Made by a program: the position numbers and the translations under genes. The notes beneath the pieces were generated by a model, which made no database searches, was not told the DNA's origin, and worked only from the letters and a program-made list of their open reading frames with translations. A DNA stretch of 64,000 bases from Streptomyces sp. NBC_00820. GTDB taxonomy: Bacteria; Actinomycetota; Actinomycetes; Streptomycetales; Streptomycetaceae. Where the stretch lies: assembly GCF_036347055.1 (NCBI RefSeq), contig NZ_CP108882.1:3484501-3548500 (forward strand). Direction: 5' to 3'. Below are positions 31,231 to 58,479 of this stretch, piece after piece. Position 1 is the first letter of the stretch. Each line of letters starts with the position of its first letter.

Positions 31231-31908
31231 TCAGTGGCCCGGCCAGCCGTCCAGGTGGCGGTGCAGGGTGACGTCCGGCTTCACGTGCCCCTTAGGGGCG
31301 TGCGCCACGGCGTCGTCCAGGACCTTGGTGACCTCACCGGCCAGGGCGTCGACGCGTGTCTTCAGCTCGGCGGCGGGCAGCGTGGAGCGGCTGAGCGTGT
31401 CCAGCCTGCGGTGGATGTCGTTCAGTCGGCGCTTGTGCGCGGCGTCGAAGGTGAACGGCGTCGGGGTGGAGACGACGAACTGGTAGGCACCGGCGAGCGT
31501 CTGGCAGCCGGTGCACGACTTGTTGGCGGCGTCGCTGAGGTTCACGGCGTTCAGGTGCGTGCGCTGGCCGGCGAACGTGACGATCTGGAAGGACAGCGCG
31601 ACCGACCGGCAGTGGTCGTCCGCCGAGCAGCCCGCGGAGACCGCGTTGGCCTGGTTGCGGGCGGAGGCGGCGTTCACGGTGCCGAACTGGCGGATGGTGA
31701 AGGAGTCGCGGGCCTGCGTGTGGTGGGCCCGGTCGGCGTGGCTGAAGACGTGGTCCGAGGCGAACGCGGCATGCCCCGAACCGGTGGCGGCCTGCGCCGG
31801 GACGGCCGTGGCCACTCCGGCGGCACCGGCCGCGAGGAGCACGGTGCGCAGGGCGCGCCCGCTGAAGGGACGGCCGGTGCTGGAGCGTGCCTTTCGGTGA
31901 CTGCTCAT
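31231..31908 (-). CDS. Secreted Cys-containing protein linked to the peptide/M50 locus
   Basis: 225 aa. The N terminus is a signal peptide: basic (HRKAR...GRALR), hydrophobic core [13 protein letters not shown], likely cleaved after PAQA at residue ~40. The mature part has four cysteines (AGCSADDHCRSV and SCTGCQTL), the latter pair in a CxxC, and a helical C-terminal region (LNDIHRRLDTLSR). The family is not recognised. It follows the M50 gene on the same strand after 344 bp, so it may belong to the same system as a partner or substrate. Confidence 0.65.
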   Translation of the reverse strand: MSSHRKARSSTGRPFSGRALRTVLLAAGAAGVATAVPAQAATGSGHAAFASDHVFSHADRAHHTQARDSFTIRQFGTVNAASARNQANAVSAGCSADDHCRSVALSFQIVTFAGQRTHLNAVNLSDAANKSCTGCQTLAGAYQFVVSTPTPFTFDAAHKRRLNDIHRRLDTLSRSTLPAAELKTRVDALAGEVTKVLDDAVAHAPKGHVKPDVTLHRHLDGWPGH

Positions 31909-32252: not shown

Positions 32253-34178
32253 TCAGGACGACACCGGCGCCGCGGTCTCGGTGGGCGGTGATTCCGTGTG
32301 GGTCTCCGTGGGCGACGTCGTCGCGCTCTCCGACGGGGTCGGCGAGGGTTCCGACGGCGGGCCGGACGTGGCCGGTCCGGGACCCGCCCCCGGTTCGCCG
32401 CCGCTGGTGGTGGCGGGCGGAGGGGTGGTGCTCGCGGTCGGCTTCCCGGGCTCGGGCGACCCGGCCGTGGACGCCGGGGCGGAGGCGGACGCGCTGTCCG
32501 ACGCCTCGGCCGAGGCACTGCCGGACGCCCCGGTGACCGGTGCTCCCGGGACCGCCGAGGGTGACGCGGACGCCGCGCCGGCACCGCCCGGGGAGCCCCC
32601 CGGGACCCCGCCGGGCGTCGACGCGTCCAGCGCCGGAGGTGCCGTGATGGGCACTCCGGGTTGCAGGATCGGGGCGATCGGCGGCTTCTTCGGCAAGGGC
32701 TTCGGCGTCACCCCGGACATCCAGGCGTAGCTGAGGCCCGTCAGTCCGGCCAGGGCGAGCGCGCACACCGCGACACGCAGCCGGGGTCGGCCCGCGGTGG
32801 AGCGTTTCGCGGCCCGGAAGAGCCGGCCGCCGATCTTCACCGAGAGGTAGACGACTCCCGCCATCGGGCACAGCAGCATCACGGTGCCGATCACCCCGAC
32901 GAGCCCGGGCACGATCTCCCCGTGCACGAACGCCGAACCGGTGCCGGTGAGTTGCTCGGTCAGCGAGCGGACCATCGTGGTGAGGATCCGCGGCAGGTTC
33001 CACAGCGCGTAGCCCAGCTCGCCGATGATCAGCGGCACCATGGTCAGCGTCCAGGTGGCGACGATGGTGCGCGCCGACCTCTTCAGCCCCGCGACCTCCA
33101 CGCGGGCGGCCTGCCCCTTGGCGCCCGGGACCAGGGAGAGCAGGATCGGCTTGATCTTGCCGTACAGGTCCGGCACGCCGGCGAGGTCGCCCAGGATGTA
33201 GTAGCCGTCCAGCCGGACGGCCGGCATCAGCTGTTCGAGGATCTCGAAGTGGCCGAGGTAGACCGCCGCGAGGAAGAACGGCTGCCCGGTGGCGAAGTAG
33301 GCCCCGGCCATGGCCAGCATGAAAACGACGTTGAAGTAGATCCCGCCGAGGTCGGTGCGGATGCGTCCGGCGCGGTTGATCCGGTAGACGTCGGTGACGT
33401 CTGTGTACATCGACGGCCAGATGAGGAACAGGCCGCAGCCGATGCACCCGGGCCGGGCGCCGCCGTATCTGCAGGCGGAGGCGTGGCCGAACTCGTGGAA
33501 GACGAGCGAGGCCACGGTGAGGACGAAGACGATCAGGATCAGCACCGGCTGGTCCAGGACCTCCAGGACCGGTTCGATCGCCCCGAAGAAGCCGAACAGC
33601 CAGACGTCCATGGCGACGGCCGTCAGCAGCACGGCGGCGACCACGGGCGGCCGGTGCAGCCAGGCCAGGGCCCGGGCGATCCTCGCCGTACGACGTTCGT
33701 CGAAGATCACCCGGTGGCCCTTGAGGGCGAGGAGGAGGTCGGAGCGCGGGGCGTCGACCTCGTCGTCCTCCTGGCCCTCGGGCACCGTCACGCCCAGCGG
33801 TTCGAGCTTGTTCTCGACCAGGTAGCGGATGTTCTCCCCGCTGACCTCGCGGCCGAAGCGCGCGCTCACCCGGTGGGCGATCGTGTCGATGTCGCGGACG
33901 CCGTCGACGGACGACGCCACGAGGTACAGCAGCCGTGACAGCTGCACGACCTGCCCGTCCCCCCGACGGGCGATGTACTTGGGCTCGGTGAACCCCGACC
34001 CCTGGTACTCGCCGTGCAGCCGCAGCCCCGCGCTGAGCCGCGGGACCGGCTGGGCCGGCACCCCGGCGACCGGCAGTTTGCCGGTCGCCGCCTGCTCGTA
34101 CGTCACCGGCCAGCCACCGGGCCCGGGCAGCGGGCCGGTGCCGTACAGCGCGGTGGTGCCGTCTCCCAGCACCGTCAT
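32253..34178 (-). CDS. M50-type membrane metalloprotease with N-terminal PqqD-like (RRE) domain
   Basis: 641 aa, ATG after GGGGGGAGAG. Residues ~66-131 look like a PqqD/RiPP-recognition element: VVQLSRLLYLVASSVDG, then DIDTIAHRVSARFGR and a helix ENIRYLVENKLEPLGV. Residues ~175-500 contain about eight membrane spans, the zinc motif HEFGH (228-232) and the second ligand segment LDGYY (323-327), as in site-2 proteases and peptide zinc metalloproteases. A Cys cluster (CRYGG...CIGCG) follows HEFGH. The last ~130 residues are a Pro/Ser/Thr-rich tail. It lies just after two small peptide genes on the same strand, so I infer that it binds and cuts or exports them. Confidence 0.78.
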   Translation of the reverse strand: MTVLGDGTTALYGTGPLPGPGGWPVTYEQAATGKLPVAGVPAQPVPRLSAGLRLHGEYQGSGFTEPKYIARRGDGQVVQLSRLLYLVASSVDGVRDIDTIAHRVSARFGREVSGENIRYLVENKLEPLGVTVPEGQEDDEVDAPRSDLLLALKGHRVIFDERRTARIARALAWLHRPPVVAAVLLTAVAMDVWLFGFFGAIEPVLEVLDQPVLILIVFVLTVASLVFHEFGHASACRYGGARPGCIGCGLFLIWPSMYTDVTDVYRINRAGRIRTDLGGIYFNVVFMLAMAGAYFATGQPFFLAAVYLGHFEILEQLMPAVRLDGYYILGDLAGVPDLYGKIKPILLSLVPGAKGQAARVEVAGLKRSARTIVATWTLTMVPLIIGELGYALWNLPRILTTMVRSLTEQLTGTGSAFVHGEIVPGLVGVIGTVMLLCPMAGVVYLSVKIGGRLFRAAKRSTAGRPRLRVAVCALALAGLTGLSYAWMSGVTPKPLPKKPPIAPILQPGVPITAPPALDASTPGGVPGGSPGGAGAASASPSAVPGAPVTGASGSASAEASDSASASAPASTAGSPEPGKPTASTTPPPATTSGGEPGAGPGPATSGPPSEPSPTPSESATTSPTETHTESPPTETAAPVSS

Positions 34179-34288
34179 GTGTGCTCTCCCCCCATGTCCT
34201 CACCGCGTAGCGCCGGCACGGACGCGGGGACGGACCGCCGCGCACTTGGGTGCGGCCCGTCCCCGCGGCCGGTGCGGCGGCGAGGCCG

Positions 34289-34507
34289 CTACTGCTTGAC
34301 GGTGATCGACTGCGTGGCCTGCGACTGGGCGTCCGACCACAGCGAGTGGTCGTTCAGCGCGGCCGACTGGTTCGCGGCGGAGATGTTGGCCACGTGCTTG
34401 GTGACGTTGACGGTCTTGCCGAAGCTGAACTTCAGCTTGCCGAGGGCCTCACGGCCCGGGAGCAGCTCCGCCGACTCGCCGTCCAGCTCGCGCATGTCCA
34501 TGCTCAT
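34289..34507 (-). CDS. Small peptide 1, putative precursor with conserved leader
   Basis: 72 aa, ATG after AAGGAAAGGACC. Residues 7-45 are almost identical to peptide 2: ESAELLPGREALGKLKFSFG then KTVNVTKHVANISA. The tail keeps SAALNDHS but otherwise differs (LWSDAQSQATQSITVKQ). There is no cysteine, no signal peptide and no Gly-Gly site. A near-constant N-terminal part with a variable tail, next to a protease with a peptide-binding domain, fits a ribosomal-peptide precursor. Confidence 0.75.
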   Translation of the reverse strand: MSMDMRELDGESAELLPGREALGKLKFSFGKTVNVTKHVANISAANQSAALNDHSLWSDAQSQATQSITVKQ

Positions 34508-34559
34508 GATGAAGGTCCTTTCCTTGGATGTGCGGGTGGGTCGAGGTGGTGCGCGGGCG

Positions 34560-34775
34560 TTACTGGGAGACGCTGATGGTCTGGGCGGCGCCGGAGTCGG
34601 CCACGGAGAACGCGGAGTGGTCGTTGAGGGCGGCGGACTCGTTGTGCGCGGAGATGTTCGCGACGTGCTTGGTGACGTTGACCGTCTTGCCGAAGCTGAA
34701 CTTCAGCTTGCCGAGGGCCTCGCGGCCCGGCAGCAGCTCCGCGGACTCGGCGTCGAGCTCGTGGGCGTTCATCAT
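34560..34775 (-). CDS. Small peptide 2, paralogous putative precursor
   Basis: 71 aa from the first of two ATG codons (34775), since GAGGGGGAA lies 6 bases ahead. It shares the ESAELLPGREALGKLKFSFG and TVNVTKHVANISA blocks with peptide 1; the tail is HNESAALNDHSAFSVADSG then AAQTISVSQ. The DNA of the shared part is also highly alike, so the pair is a recent tandem duplication under leader constraint. It is the first gene of the leftward operon and lies behind a TTGGAC-type palindrome. Confidence 0.78.
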   Translation of the reverse strand: MMNAHELDAESAELLPGREALGKLKFSFGKTVNVTKHVANISAHNESAALNDHSAFSVADSGAAQTISVSQ

Positions 34776-34836: not shown

Positions 34837-34877
34837 CTGTCCAACTTGGTCGGACGCACTGTCCAACGAGATTGGAC
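34837..34877. promoter_or_regulatory. Candidate operator of the XRE regulator at the peptide promoter
   Basis: Two copies of ctgtccaac occur at 34837 and 34859. The right one forms a perfect inverted repeat GTCCAA (34861-34866) / TTGGAC (34872-34877); the left contains CCAACTTGG. They lie between the peptide operon and the divergent XRE gene, 60-100 bp from the peptide start. Confidence 0.55.
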
Positions 34878-35013
34878 ACTAGGGCCTCGCGACCCGCCTC
34901 CGCAACCCATTCGGGGAATCACTCTTCCGGCGGTGCGCCTACTCGCCCGTAGAATCCCCTGCGACAGGAGGTACGGCCGAGCGGCGAGCAGGACGAGCAG
35001 GAAGTGACCCACG

Positions 35014-35421
35014 GTGTCCAACGCACTGCAGCAGTTGATCCGCGAGCGTCTCGACCGCAAGGGCTGGTCGTACGGCGATGTGGCACGACGCGGCGGCGTA
35101 CCCCGCTCCACCGTCCATCACCTGGCGACCACCGAACGGGTCGTCCGGATGCCTCAGGCGGCCACCCTGGAGGGTCTGGCCAAGGGACTTGAGCTGCCGC
35201 TCGACGCCATCCGGCGCGCCGCGGCCGAGGCCTGCGGCATCCACGTCTACGGCGCCCCGTCCACCGAGGGCGCCGACAAGACGGCCCCCCTCTCCGGCGA
35301 CCCCGAGGTGGACCTGCTCATCGCCAGCGTGCAGCAGCTGTCGGCCGACGACCGCCGGCATGTCGCCGCCCTGGTGGAGTCGCTGCTGGGCCGCCCCGCG
35401 AAGGACACCCCGGAGAACTGA
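35014..35421 (+). CDS. XRE-family helix-turn-helix regulator
   Basis: 135 aa, GTG start after AGGAAG. The helix-turn-helix is near the N terminus: LDRKGWSYGDVARRGGVPRSTVHHL, read as two helices around GVPRS. A helical C-terminal part follows (VDLLIASVQQLSADDRRHV). It is divergent from the peptide/M50 operon, and the palindromes between them suggest it controls that operon and perhaps itself. Confidence 0.8.
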   Translation: MSNALQQLIRERLDRKGWSYGDVARRGGVPRSTVHHLATTERVVRMPQAATLEGLAKGLELPLDAIRRAAAEACGIHVYGAPSTEGADKTAPLSGDPEVDLLIASVQQLSADDRRHVAALVESLLGRPAKDTPEN

Positions 35422-36073: not shown

Positions 36074-36481
36074 AGGCCATGGGCACCGCTACGAGGGGCC
36101 GAGCCTATCGGGACCCCCTCCCACCACCGCGGAGACGACGATCCGATGTTGTCTTATTTTATTGATGTCTGAGGGTGCATCAGACCACGGTACGAGCCAT
36201 CCGCACTTGCCAACAGCCTGACGCGGCACCGTCGCGGACGTACGCGGAATGACGGAATTTCACCTACCGAACGAGGGCGGTCCACCGGTTCTCACCGGCG
36301 GCGGTGTCCGGGTGGCCCGTCCTCCCCAGGTATGACACGGACCCGCTCCGTCCGACCGGAGTCGCCCCCAGGAACGGGAGCAGCGACTGACATCGCGGGC
36401 CAGGACGGCCGGGACGATGGAGGGGTCCCCGCACCGACACACCGTCCCCGCGACACACCGTCCCGACAGGAGCACCCTCCC
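36074..36481. promoter_or_regulatory. bldA promoter region and spacer to the ABC exporter
   Basis: On the minus strand TAGGCT (36107-36102) is a likely -10 about 29 bp before the tRNA. An AT-rich block (36148-36168, cttattttattgatg) lies farther upstream and stands out in this GC-rich DNA. The rightward half leads to the exporter ATPase at 36482, with CAGGAG before its GTG. Open frames crossing this spacer lack codon support. Confidence 0.5.
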
Positions 36482-37252
36482 GTGACCACCACACCCACCG
36501 CCGGCCGGACCACGGCCGTGGCCGCACGCGCCACCGAGCTGTCGAAGATCTACGGGCAGGGCGAGACCCGGGTGGTCGCCCTGGACCAGGTCTCCGTCGA
36601 CTTCCGGCAGGCGGAGTTCACCGCGATCATGGGGCCGTCCGGTTCCGGCAAGTCCACGCTGATGCACTGCGTGGCCGGACTGGACACCTTCTCCTCGGGG
36701 TCCGTGCGGATCGGCGAGACCGAGCTGGGCTCGCTGAAGGACAAGCAGCTCACCAAGTTGCGCCGCGACAAGATCGGCTTCATCTTCCAGGCGTTCAACC
36801 TGCTGCCCACGCTGACCGCTCTGGAGAACATCACCCTCCCCATGGACATCGCGGGCCGCAAGCCCGACAAGGCGTGGCTGGACCAGGTCATCGAGATGGT
36901 CGGCCTGTCCGGGCGCCTGACCCACCGGCCCTCGCAGCTCTCCGGCGGCCAGCAGCAGCGCGTCGCCGTCGCCCGCGCCCTCGCCTCCAAGCCCGAGATC
37001 ATCTTCGGCGACGAGCCGACCGGAAACCTCGACTCCCGCTCCGGCGCCGAGGTGCTGGGCTTCCTGCGCAACTCCGTGCGCGAGCTGGGCCAGACCGTGG
37101 TCATGGTGACCCACGACCCGGTCGCGGCGGCGTACGCGGACCGCGTGGTCTTCCTCGCCGACGGACGGATCGTGGACGAGATCCACGCCCCCACGGCCGA
37201 CTCCGTACTCGACCTCATGAAGCAGTTCGACGCGAAGGGCCGTACCAGCTGA
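36482..37252 (+). CDS. ABC exporter ATPase (MacB/LolD type)
   Basis: 256 aa from the GTG at 36482; a longer frame to 36332 has a Pro/Arg-rich stretch unlike the family. Walker A GPSGSGKSTL, signature [10 protein letters not shown], Walker B IIFGDEPTGNLD and the switch His in VTHD are intact. GNLDSRSG is typical of the LolD/MacB subgroup. It drives the permease that starts one base inside its stop. Substrate unknown; the group exports peptides, lipoproteins or antibiotics. Confidence 0.9.
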   Translation: MTTTPTAGRTTAVAARATELSKIYGQGETRVVALDQVSVDFRQAEFTAIMGPSGSGKSTLMHCVAGLDTFSSGSVRIGETELGSLKDKQLTKLRRDKIGFIFQAFNLLPTLTALENITLPMDIAGRKPDKAWLDQVIEMVGLSGRLTHRPSQLSGGQQQRVAVARALASKPEIIFGDEPTGNLDSRSGAEVLGFLRNSVRELGQTVVMVTHDPVAAAYADRVVFLADGRIVDEIHAPTADSVLDLMKQFDAKGRTS

Positions 37253-39780
37253 TGTTCCGCACAGCCCTGCGCAACGTCCTCGCGCACAAGGCCCGGCTCC
37301 TGATGACCGTGCTCGCCGTCATGCTCGGCGTGGCGTTCGTGTCCGGGACGCTGGTCTTCACCAACACCATCTCCGACGCCTTCCAGAAGAGCTCCGCCAA
37401 GGGCTACGGCCAGGTCGACGTCGCCGTACAGCCCCGGTACCAGGGCTCCAAGGGCAACCAGGTCGGCCAGAGCGCCGAGCTGACGCAGGCGATGCTCGAC
37501 AAGGCCGCCAAGGTCCCCGGTGCCGCCTCCGCCACAGGTGTCGTCACCGGTTTCACCGCGCTCGCGGACAAGGACGGCAAGCTGCTCGGCAGCGGCTGGC
37601 AGTCCGCCGGCGGCAACTACTGGGGCACCGACGACGCCCGCTACCCGCTCGCCGCCGGCCACGCGCCGCACGGCAGGGGCGAGGTGCTGATCGACTCGAA
37701 GACCGCCGAGCGCGCCGGCTACAAGGTCGGCGACACCCTGCGCCTGTCGGTCGACGGCCCGGTCCTCACCCCGCGTATCAGCGGCATCTTCACCACCGAC
37801 GACGGCAACGTGACCGCCGGCGGCAGCCTCGCCCTGTTCGACACCCCGACCGCGCAGGCGCTGTTCGGCAAGAAGGGCACGTACGACGAGATCGACGTCA
37901 AGGCCGCGGCCGGAACCGGCCAGAGCGCCCTGAAGGCCGGTCTGGACAAGGCCCTGCCGTCCCGCCTGGTGGAGACCACCACCGCCGAGAAGCTCGCCGC
38001 CGACCAGGCCAAGGACATCGCCGACGGCATGAGCGGTCTGAAGCGGGTCCTGCTGGTGTTCGCCGGCATCGCCCTGTTCGTGGGCACGTTCATCATCGCC
38101 AACACCTTCACCATGCTGGTCGCCCAGCGCACCAAGGAACTGGCCCTGCTGCGGGCGGTCGGCGCCTCCCGCCGGCAGGTCACCCGCTCGGTGCTGATCG
38201 AGGCCTTCGTGGTGGGCGCCGTCGCCGGTGTCACCGGTCTGGTCGCCGGCATCGGCATCGGCGCGGGCCTGCGCTCCCTGCTGGGCTCCTTCGGCGCGAG
38301 CCTGCCCGACGGGCCGCTGGTGGTCACGCCCGGCACCGTGGTGGCCGCCCTCGCGGTCGGCGTCGTCATCACCGTGATCGCCGCCTGGCTGCCGGGCCGC
38401 CGCGCCGCGAAGATCCCGCCGGTCGCCGCGATGAGCAGCGTCCACGCCACGGCCACCACCAAGTCGCTGGTCCTGCGCAACACGCTCGGCGCGCTGTTCT
38501 CGGCGGCCGGCGTCACCACGGTCCTCGCGGCCACGACGATGGACACCGACTCCGCGCAGCTCCCGATGGGTCTCGGCGCCGTCCTGCTGATCATCGGCGT
38601 GTTCATCCTGACCCCGCTGCTGTCCCGCCCGCTGATCGCGGCCGCCGCTCCCGTGCTGCGCCTCTTCGGTGTCTCGGGCCGGCTGGCCCGCCAGAACTCG
38701 GTGCGCAACCCGCGCCGCACGGCGGCCACGGCGTCCGCGCTGATGATCGGCCTGACCCTGATCACCGGCATGACCGTGATGGCGGGCAGCCTGCAGACGG
38801 CGATCGACAAGATGGCGAGCTCGGCGCTGCGCGCCGACTACGTCGTGGCGATGGCCAACCGCGGCCCGCTCTCCCCCGACGTGGCCCACAGGATCGCCGC
38901 CGCGGACGGCGTCAGCGCCAGCAGCCCGCTGCGCAACGGCGCCTCCCGCATCGACGGCAGGACCGAGTACCTGACCGGCGTCGACGGCGCGGCCATCGGC
39001 AAGCTGACGGACCTGAAGGTGGACGACGGTTCCTTCACGATCGGCGGCGACCGGGTCGTCGTCGACAAGGACCGGGCCGAGAAGAACGGCTGGAAGGCCG
39101 GTTCGGACTTCACCGCCCACTTCGAGGACGGCAAGGCGCGGAAGCTGACGGTCGCCGGGGTCTACGAGGGCAACGACATGATCAACGGGATCATGCTCGA
39201 CAACAGGACCCTCACCCCGCACCTGGCCCACCCCGCCGACATGCAGGTCATGGTCAAGATGTCCGGCGGTGCCTCCGGCGCGGCCAAGGACCGGCTGGAG
39301 AAGGCCCTCGGCTCCAACCCGGCGGTCAAGGTCGAGGACAAGCAGGACATCTCCAACGACATAGCGCAGATGTTCACGCTGATCCTGAACATGGTCTACG
39401 GCCTGCTCGGCATGGCGGTGATCGTCGCGGTCCTCGGTGTCATCAACACCCTGGCCATGTCGGTCTTCGAGCGCTCCCAGGAGATCGGCATGCTCCGCGC
39501 GATCGGCCTGGACCGCAGGGCGATCAAGCGGATGGTCCGCCTGGAGTCCCTGGTGATCTCCCTGTTCGGCGGTGTGCTCGGCATCGGTCTGGGCGTGTTC
39601 TTCGGCTGGGCGGCCGGTGAGCTGCTGGGCACGAAGCTGCCGACGTACCAACTGGTGCTGCCCTGGGGCCGGATGACGGTCTTCCTGCTGCTGGCGGCTG
39701 TCGTCGGCATCCTGGCCGCTCTGTGGCCGGCCCGGCGCGCGTCCCGCCTGAACATGCTGGCGGCGATCAAGGCCGAGTAG
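37252..39780 (+). CDS. ABC exporter permease with two FtsX domains (MacB-like)
   Basis: 842 aa; ATG overlaps the ATPase stop by one base (TGATG). An N-terminal span (AVMLGVAFVSGTLVFTN), a large outside domain, then three spans with the FtsX loop (LVAQRTKELALLRAVGASRR); after a further span the pattern repeats, ending with SVFERSQEIGMLRAIGLDRR. This duplicated FtsX layout is usual in actinobacterial MacB-type exporters. The pair is followed by a 19-bp terminator stem. Confidence 0.9.
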   Translation: MFRTALRNVLAHKARLLMTVLAVMLGVAFVSGTLVFTNTISDAFQKSSAKGYGQVDVAVQPRYQGSKGNQVGQSAELTQAMLDKAAKVPGAASATGVVTGFTALADKDGKLLGSGWQSAGGNYWGTDDARYPLAAGHAPHGRGEVLIDSKTAERAGYKVGDTLRLSVDGPVLTPRISGIFTTDDGNVTAGGSLALFDTPTAQALFGKKGTYDEIDVKAAAGTGQSALKAGLDKALPSRLVETTTAEKLAADQAKDIADGMSGLKRVLLVFAGIALFVGTFIIANTFTMLVAQRTKELALLRAVGASRRQVTRSVLIEAFVVGAVAGVTGLVAGIGIGAGLRSLLGSFGASLPDGPLVVTPGTVVAALAVGVVITVIAAWLPGRRAAKIPPVAAMSSVHATATTKSLVLRNTLGALFSAAGVTTVLAATTMDTDSAQLPMGLGAVLLIIGVFILTPLLSRPLIAAAAPVLRLFGVSGRLARQNSVRNPRRTAATASALMIGLTLITGMTVMAGSLQTAIDKMASSALRADYVVAMANRGPLSPDVAHRIAAADGVSASSPLRNGASRIDGRTEYLTGVDGAAIGKLTDLKVDDGSFTIGGDRVVVDKDRAEKNGWKAGSDFTAHFEDGKARKLTVAGVYEGNDMINGIMLDNRTLTPHLAHPADMQVMVKMSGGASGAAKDRLEKALGSNPAVKVEDKQDISNDIAQMFTLILNMVYGLLGMAVIVAVLGVINTLAMSVFERSQEIGMLRAIGLDRRAIKRMVRLESLVISLFGGVLGIGLGVFFGWAAGELLGTKLPTYQLVLPWGRMTVFLLLAAVVGILAALWPARRASRLNMLAAIKAE

Positions 39781-56943: not shown

Positions 56944-58479
56944 TCAGCCCCGCACCTGTCCCAGCCACTGCAGGGTCCGGCGGATCTCCACCGCCAGCGG
57001 GTCACCGGGGCCCTGGACGCGTTCCACGTCCATCAGCAACCGGACGAGCGTGTCGTGGGCGGCCGGGCGGTCGCCGAGGGCGAGCAGCAGGTGGCCGATG
57101 CGGCGGCGCAGGTCGAGGGCGAGCTGGGGGTCGCCGGAGACGTACTGGTTCTCGTAGTACGGCAGCAGCGCGCGGTACTCGGCGAGCGCCGCGGTCGGTT
57201 CGCCGAGCTGCTCCAGGCACTGGGCGGCCTCGTAGCGGAAGCGCAGGGACTGGGGGTCGGACTGGCCGCCCTCGGTGGCGCGTTCGTCGGCGAGGCGGCG
57301 CAGTTCGGGCAGGGCGCGCCGGTACTGGCCGTCGTCCATGAGGGTGGCCGCGTACTGCTTGCGCAGGGTGCGGACGACCGGGGAGTGCTCGCCGTGCTGT
57401 TCGGCGGCGGCGGGCAGGATCGCGCCGAGGATGTCCACGGCCTGGGTGATGCGGCCCTCCCCGAGCAGGCGCTTGACCTCGTCGACGGCGGCGGCGACGT
57501 CCGGCTTCCCGGCCGCCGGAGGGGTGGGGGCGGCCGGGGCGGGCTGGGGCGCGGGCGTGCGCGCGCGGTCCGGCCACGGGGCGTGCGGGCGCAGGAAGGG
57601 GCGAGTGGGGTCCAGCGGCGCTCCGGTGGGCGTGCCGCGCGGGGGCAGGAGCAGCGCCAGGTGCTCGTACACCTCCTGCGCGGAGGCGGGGCGGGCTTGC
57701 GGGTCCTTGGCGAGCAGGCGCAGGACCAGCGTCTCCAGCGCCTCGGGCACCTCGGGGCGGATCCGGCGCACCGGCAGCGGGGGTTCGTACAGGTGCCGGT
57801 GCAGCACGCCGAGGGCGGTGGAGCCGACGAACGGCACGTCACCGCTGAGCAGTTCGTGTATCAGCACGCCGAGCGCGTACAGGTCGGTGTACGGGCCGAC
57901 CGCGCCGCCCATCGCCTGCTCGGGCGCCATGTAGGCGGGCGAGCCGATGGGGGAGCCGGTGTGGGTGAGGCGGGTGGTGTCGGTGTCCATGACCGAGGCG
58001 ACACCCAGGTCGAGGACGGTGACCGTGCCGTCCTGCTTCACCATCACGTTGCGCGGCTTGAGGTCGCGGTGCACGATCGGCACGGCGTGCACCGCGCTCA
58101 GCACGGCGCACAGCTGCGCGGCCACCGCGACCGCCCACTGCCACGGGTACGGGTCGTGCTCGGCGAGGTGGTCGGAGAGGTCGGCGCCGTCGACGTACTG
58201 CATGACGAGGAACAGCTCCTCGCCCTCACTGCCGGCGTCGTGCACGGTGACCAGGCCGGGGTGGTCGACCTGCGCGGTCACCCGGCACTCACGCACGAAG
58301 CGGCGGCGCAGCTCGTCCGCCTCCTGCCCGGCCACCTTGTCCGGGCGCAGCAGCTTCACGGCCACACGCCGGTCGAGCCGCTGGTCGTAGGCCGTCCACA
58401 CCTGACCCATGCCGCCCTGTCCGATGAGCGTGGACAGTTCGTACCGGCCGGCGACGACACGTCCCTGCGTCACGGTCAC
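56944..58479 (-). CDS. Soluble PknB-type serine/threonine kinase with TPR tail
   Basis: 511 aa, GTG start overlapping the upstream stop (GTGA). Kinase domain 13-275: glycine loop LIGQGGMGQVW, Lys in VAVKLL, catalytic loop IVHRDLKPRNVM, DLGVAS in place of DFG, then APEQAMGG. A Pro/Ala linker leads to C-terminal TPR repeats (VDEVKRLLGEGRITQAVDIL, ALAEYRALLPYYENQY). No transmembrane helix, but it is coupled to a membrane protein (58476-59147). Confidence 0.9.
   Translation of the reverse strand: MTVTQGRVVAGRYELSTLIGQGGMGQVWTAYDQRLDRRVAVKLLRPDKVAGQEADELRRRFVRECRVTAQVDHPGLVTVHDAGSEGEELFLVMQYVDGADLSDHLAEHDPYPWQWAVAVAAQLCAVLSAVHAVPIVHRDLKPRNVMVKQDGTVTVLDLGVASVMDTDTTRLTHTGSPIGSPAYMAPEQAMGGAVGPYTDLYALGVLIHELLSGDVPFVGSTALGVLHRHLYEPPLPVRRIRPEVPEALETLVLRLLAKDPQARPASAQEVYEHLALLLPPRGTPTGAPLDPTRPFLRPHAPWPDRARTPAPQPAPAAPTPPAAGKPDVAAAVDEVKRLLGEGRITQAVDILGAILPAAAEQHGEHSPVVRTLRKQYAATLMDDGQYRRALPELRRLADERATEGGQSDPQSLRFRYEAAQCLEQLGEPTAALAEYRALLPYYENQYVSGDPQLALDLRRRIGHLLLALGDRPAAHDTLVRLLMDVERVQGPGDPLAVEIRRTLQWLGQVRG

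Follow-up and report, generated by a model that had tools for sequence, protein, structure and literature searches.

What do two tandem genes for peptides of 71 and 72 residues produce, when the peptides have no visible signal peptide and are followed directly by a gene for a membrane protease? We examined this question in a stretch of 64,000 nucleotides from Streptomyces sp. NBC_00820 (contig NZ_CP108882.1, positions 3,484,501 to 3,548,500; hereafter the window, in whose numbering coordinates are given). The genes belong to a cassette that runs, in order, through a divergent regulator, pepA, pepB, an M50 protease and sec225, which encodes a secreted protein. We propose, at about even odds in our own judgement, that the cassette secretes peptides under the guidance of their leader and uses no modifying enzymes: the M50 protease would bind, cut and release unmodified β-arch subunits, and these would stack into a surface fibre for which sec225 provides the seed. 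The evidence for gene linkage and for selection is strong; cleavage, export and fibre formation are inferred.

Two tandem peptide genes with widespread homologues

The gene pepA (34560-34775, minus strand) encodes 71 residues, a leader followed by a tail predicted to form a β-arch, and pepB (34289-34507, minus strand; 72 residues) is its tandem paralogue, the two products sharing 79% identity. The initial annotation of this DNA had described them as two tandem paralogous peptides of 71-72 residues lacking cysteine and a signal peptide. Both open reading frames (ORFs) were recovered, homologues are widespread, and the description holds for PepA and PepB themselves; Cys is present in the tail of some of their relatives. 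Homologues of near-constant length were found in 36 of 295 Streptomyces genomes, and 279 of 281 scored candidate proteins matched the peptides at E<=0.01. A second collection yielded 51 peptide loci, with Streptomyces, Streptacidiphilus, Actinacidiphila and Actinospica among the host genera and two peptide copies in 38 loci, one in 10 and three in 3. The pooled ratio of nonsynonymous to synonymous substitution rates (dN/dS), from 16 A and 18 B sequences, is 0.10 (A) and 0.11 (B) over residues 10-28. Because of this low ratio and the number and near-constant length of the homologues, we regard pepA and pepB as more than chance ORFs. Neither peptide matched a Pfam or NCBIfam model at E<=0.1 or a PHROG at E<=0.01.

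A pepA relative with 66% identity lies on a mobilizable Streptomyces plasmid (NZ_CP107797.1:199629-199838), thus the cassette may move. One Streptomyces chromosome record (DHE7-1) has near-identical cassettes (L071, L072) close to its two ends and also carries a third peptide copy (L075) without an adjacent M50 gene.

The leader is paired with a membrane protease

The leader part of pepA (residues 1-28; 34692-34775, minus strand) contains the motif ELxxExAELLPGREALG. The M50 protease (32253-34178, minus strand) has 641 residues, with HEFGH at residue 228 as its HExxH metal-binding motif (33483-33497, minus strand), LDG at residue 323 and a Pro/Ser/Thr-rich C-terminal tail. Its gene is directly downstream of the peptides in 45 of the 48 loci where this could be tested, and the genomes of the remaining three (L075, L079, L082) carry an M50 gene elsewhere. 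As set out in the initial annotation, we looked for leader homologues lacking the protease: all 36 peptide-bearing genomes among the 295 from Streptomyces encode the M50, which occurs in 42 genomes altogether (Fisher test, 2.2e-40). The M50s of the six genomes without a peptide homologue show 40-45% identity. In the one of these six that was examined, the M50 has beside it a tandem array of three leader peptides (L157:6484-7752), whose tails are Gly/His- or Gly-rich and which contain two Cys close to the end.

The pairing extends well beyond Streptomyces. The M50 was present in 46 of 296 genomes sampled across the class (20 of 114 genera) and in 23 of 296 sampled across the phylum (18 of 198 genera), and these distant M50s have one to four nearby ORFs with the leader pattern ELxxxxxxxLPx(R/K) and differing tails. 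The tails behind the common leader comprise Asn/Ala-rich peptides of 66-82 residues, two-repeat proteins of ~200-360 residues, and Pro/Asn/Ser-rich, Gly/His-rich, HDRGGD-repeat and hydrophobic kinds; for one peptide type, at least 7960 related precursor proteins were counted among 8000 scored candidates. We searched 6321 six-frame ORFs from 35 M50 loci with a leader hidden Markov model (HMM) built from 16 seeds, some of them drawn from these loci. It gave 60 matches at E<0.05 in 34 of the 35 loci, every one within 3.5 kb upstream of the M50 gene and on its strand, although these upstream windows make up 11% of the bases searched; one locus, L137, is cut by a contig end. In a held-out set of 20 further M50 loci, 16 contained a total of 30 matches, and each match adjoined the M50. 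Of these, 23 (14 loci) lay upstream on its strand and 7 on the opposite strand, 0.2-3.1 kb away (L176, L177). The other four held-out loci (L179, L185, L190, L191) had no match at E<0.05. Overall, 90 matches fall in 50 of 55 protease loci, all adjoining the M50. We consider the leader-protease pairing well supported. The earlier idea of a leader is strengthened accordingly in the form of an N-terminal address for the M50, by matches that occur only beside the protease and by the unrelated tails that follow the leader. As a further instance of a different tail, a second cassette in Streptacidiphilus (L067:3621-6202) has the same leader followed by HDRGGD repeats and adjoins a diverged M50.

The N-terminal part of the M50 may hold the domain that reads this address. 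Residues 64-136 (33771-33989, minus strand) resemble, with weak scores, PqqD and the recognition elements (RREs) of ribosomally synthesized and post-translationally modified peptides (RiPPs). Among 18 members of the family compared with NCBIfam, 9 match ApyI and 7 PqqD (best E 4e-4 and 8e-4), and against Pfam 5 match PF05402 and 4 a winged-helix model; the window's own domain taken alone reaches PqqD at an E of only 0.057. By eye, and in our home-made gene calls, the M50 frame of two other loci (L138:6683-8902 and L145:6816-9194) seems to continue into a region resembling a MinD-like ATPase.

The tail alternates between two faces under opposite selection

The tails of PepA (residues 38-71; 34563-34664, minus strand) and PepB (residues 39-72; 34292-34393, minus strand) are predicted to share a two-strand β-arch pattern. 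We aligned 95 peptide sequences, after dropping 4 of 99. Odd residues of 39-51 and 57-71 average 0.25 bits of entropy and the even residues between them 2.12 bits, a comparison of 15 and 14 positions picked after the pattern had been seen. The autocorrelation test involved no such choice: the coefficients over residues 31-71 were -0.60 (lag 1) and +0.56 (lag 2), and 0 of 5000 permutations reached either value. Pooled dN/dS separates the same two faces, with 0.039 (A) and 0.040 (B) on the conserved face and 1.35 and 1.23 on the other; the values are 0.55 and 1.01 for residues 29-37 and 0.13 and 1.53 for residues 1-9. Since the alternation and the opposite selection fit one buried and one exposed face, we read the tail as a two-strand β-arch. 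AlphaFold2 predicts residues 31-71 of PepA as extended (block means 80-91), with no paired strands in the monomer and a predicted template modelling score (pTM) of 0.32, a model that in our own reading may represent a β-arch awaiting its neighbours.

Two statements of the initial annotation need to be revised here. The tails had been said to differ except for SAALNDHS, but alternate residues up to the C-terminus are also common to both peptides (S57, A59, S61, A63, Q65, I67, V69 and Q71), most of the shared alternate residues being nearly invariant in the 95 relatives. The tail had also been seen as a varied core, whereas in this clade it is a rigid alternation with opposite selection on its two faces rather than a freely varied segment. 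The peptides are homologous to the Asn/Ala-rich ones of other families, with E 1.8e-8 when the leader is included and E 3.9e-5 (probability 71) for the tails alone. Residues E13, L15, P16, R18, E19, N45, N51, S54, A59, Q65 and Q71 are invariant across these two peptide sets (83 sequences).

PepA and PepB of the same genome are more alike than random pairings, both over residues 23-43 (0.93 vs 0.74) and over residues 44-71 (0.71 vs 0.57), with 0 of 5000 randomizations reaching the observed value in each case (34 loci, reduced from 38 pairs). This likeness could stem from co-assembly or from gene conversion.

A secreted partner carries a tail-like motif

The last gene of the cassette, sec225 (31231-31908, minus strand), encodes a secreted protein of 225 residues that has two CxnC turns as well as a tail-like motif; its start looks like a signal peptide by eye. 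Five AlphaFold2 models range from 84 to 60 in the predicted local distance difference test (pLDDT). The best (pLDDT 84, pTM 0.76) consists of six strands, each 12-14 residues long, plus two helices and a final strand; Cys94/100 and Cys132/135 lie between strands. All 48 sequences compared have C100 and C135. The segment with CxxC aligns in register with the peptide tail, with Cys in the turn position that Ser occupies in the peptides. Profile scores for this match are 20.9 and 18.6 with two peptide families, in each case higher than any of 300 column permutations, whose maxima were 17.4 and 17.1; the hhalign probability is only 6-15%.

The gene is downstream in 40 of 42 loci. Among 18 distant cases listed, the sec225 domain is fused C-terminally to the M50 in 11 and encoded separately in 7. 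We sorted the 50 leader-matching loci by sec225 and by a tail motif, a pattern of our own making: 27 have both, 4 the motif alone, 3 sec225 alone and 16 neither (p 6.6e-7). Three of the loci with the motif alone (L172, L174, L178) end within ~0.3 kb of the aligned M50 and the fourth (L173) has 1.6 kb without a match, and in the three with sec225 alone the tails look like variants of the motif. This co-occurrence indicates that sec225 accompanies the tail type, not the leader or the protease as such.

Regulation and surroundings of the cassette

The divergent XRE-type regulator (35014-35421, plus strand) has 135 residues and matches Pfam HTH_3 and a PHROG of transcriptional repressors. A regulator stands in this divergent position in 38 of 51 loci, and the other 13 lack one there. 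Between it and pepA lies a probable operator (34838-34878), formed by a perfect palindrome (34860-34878) and a two-mismatch copy 22 bp away. In a search of the 8.1-Mb genome, the palindrome was the only site at <=1 mismatch, and a site of the form TGTCC-N7-12-GGACA occurs in 40 of 51 upstream regions. A second operator-like site in the window (58418-58436), with two mismatches, is probably due to chance.

The interval between pepB and the M50 gene holds a predicted RNA hairpin (34179-34288, minus strand; -69.5 kcal/mol). Judged against mononucleotide shuffles, this interval has a median folding z of -2.8 in 50 loci, vs -0.3 inside the M50 gene in 48 loci, and 29 of the 50 fold strongly at the same place (z below -2). 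A high peptide-to-protease ratio could be set by the hairpin, which would thus control stoichiometry. Beside the regulator stands a MacB-type ABC transporter pair (36332-39780), and 15 of 47 loci have a MacB-type permease in the vicinity of the cassette.

Comparison with known systems

We compared the cassette with systems that share parts of its logic. In daptides, as described in the excerpted text of PMC10036551, the leader is removed by an intramembrane site-2 protease (MpaP/DapP) to whose N-terminus an RRE domain is fused. The cassette resembles that account in having several short precursors that share a conserved N-terminal motif and are encoded next to a protease with a weakly scoring RRE-like domain. 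However, the peptides here end in Gln in 95 of 95 cases where daptides have an invariant C-terminal Thr, the daptide leader ELExMEAP is not that of PepA and PepB, no conserved decarboxylase, aminotransferase or methyltransferase stands beside the cassette, and the protease scores 81 bits against NF041824, below its cut-off of 300. Pfam detected none of the daptide enzyme set in 18 window genes within ~12 kb, several of which are frames without a match that may not be genes. Identity with daptides was rejected on the C-terminal Gln and the missing enzyme set.

Epipeptides (YydH/LiaK/EpeP) likewise have a membrane M50 protease serving a ribosomal peptide, and EpeP is thought to cut and export, according to the excerpted text of PMC10885120. 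The cassette differs in its tandem predicted β-arch peptides; no radical SAM epimerase was found among the window genes scanned with Pfam, nor is one conserved in the cassette. A score of 40 bits against NF058609 (cut-off 225) led us to reject this identity as well.

Streptomyces also has small proteins at its surface in the form of rodlins and chaplins. The rodlins RdlA and RdlB are homologous to each other and both are needed; RdlB forms amyloid, and rodlins carry a 28-residue signal sequence (PMC5314377, in the part available), whereas PepA and PepB have neither such a sequence nor a Pfam family match. Identity with chaplins was rejected, since neither peptide matches ChpA-C (PF03777) at E<=0.1. 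Elsewhere, among six distant leader peptides, one has a weak match to this domain (E 0.012), and leader peptides of L187, L188 and L189 have two-Cys, Val/Pro/Asn-rich tails of chaplin-like look, of which only that of L189 reaches PF03777, weakly. The likeness to rodlins and to curli (CsgA/CsgB) lies in the proposed product, and that to systems with leader-M50 maturation in the way of working. No description of the cassette was found in the open-licence literature, most subscription papers and supplements being outside its scope. Searches with leader and tail strings gave nothing relevant (one unrelated paper), and locus tags near SAVERM_1108 led only to unrelated S. aureus papers.

Alternative explanations

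The leader, the RRE-like domain and the M50 are RiPP hallmarks (excerpted text of PMC10036551), and the cassette might accordingly make a conventional RiPP: enzymes from genes outside the cassette would modify the Ser, Asn and Gln residues conserved in the tail, and the M50 would strip the leader from the modified product. In our home-made gene calls, however, the M50/sec225 and peptide genes apart, no gene cluster is present at more than 6 of the 35 distant loci, so that no modifying enzyme is conserved, and conserved residues alternating with diverging ones suit the face of a strand better than modification sites. We therefore regard a modified product as unlikely, and the pattern of modified peptides suggested by the initial annotation is weakened by the lack of a conserved modifying gene adjoining the peptides. 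A two-peptide antimicrobial pair, with sec225 as an immunity or decoy protein, would account for the tandem paralogues, for one face with diverging residues and for a secreted partner with a similar motif. It accounts poorly for the nearly invariant other face and for sec225 domains fused to the protease in distant loci, and no dedicated transporter is conserved, given the sporadic MacB-type genes; we consider it quite improbable.

Still less credible to us is a peptide signal read by the divergent regulator and processed by the M50. The frequent divergent placement of the regulator and the single operator in the genome speak for it, but a conserved structural tail of 30-40 residues and one to four copies would be unusual for a signal, helix-turn-helix is the only domain recognised in the 135-residue regulator, and the 13 loci without a divergent regulator argue against it. 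The peptides might also remain intracellular, where the M50 would merely degrade or regulate them, as the lack of a signal peptide and conservation over the whole peptide length would allow. A leader common to unrelated tails and a tail-like motif in a secreted partner argue against this, and we hold it the least probable of these explanations.

Proposed pathway and implications

We favour the fibre pathway, which may run as follows. The leader would be bound on the cytoplasmic side by the PqqD/RRE-like domain of the M50, which would remove it within the membrane and release the tail outwards. Each tail would supply one two-strand β-arch rung, its small, Asn, Ser and Gln residues pointing inwards and its freely diverging residues outwards, and rungs of PepA and PepB would stack into a surface fibre. 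The sec225 protein, presumably Sec-exported, probably disulfide-stabilised and made of similar rungs, would seed or anchor the fibre; in other actinobacteria this role may fall to the sec225-type domain fused to the protease. The local repressor would control the cassette.

A broader proposal, which we hold with somewhat less than even confidence, is that this represents a new form of fibre biogenesis widespread in Actinomycetota, in which an RRE-guided membrane protease serves as sorter, processor and exporter of unmodified one-rung subunits and carries an extracellular template in the form of a fused or neighbouring sec225. Because very different tails follow the same leader and protease, the module would serve small proteins in general as a secretion pathway independent of Sec.

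The logic of leader, RRE and M50 is known for modified peptides, and here it occurs without a conserved modifying enzyme. For genome mining this advises caution, as a protease with a fused RRE does not necessarily indicate a modified natural product. If the proposal is true, whether an intramembrane protease can export its product becomes directly testable, and antibiotic producers would possess a new surface-fibre system and export structural peptides independently of Sec. Judged from sequences and models, this may amount to a new way of building the bacterial surface.
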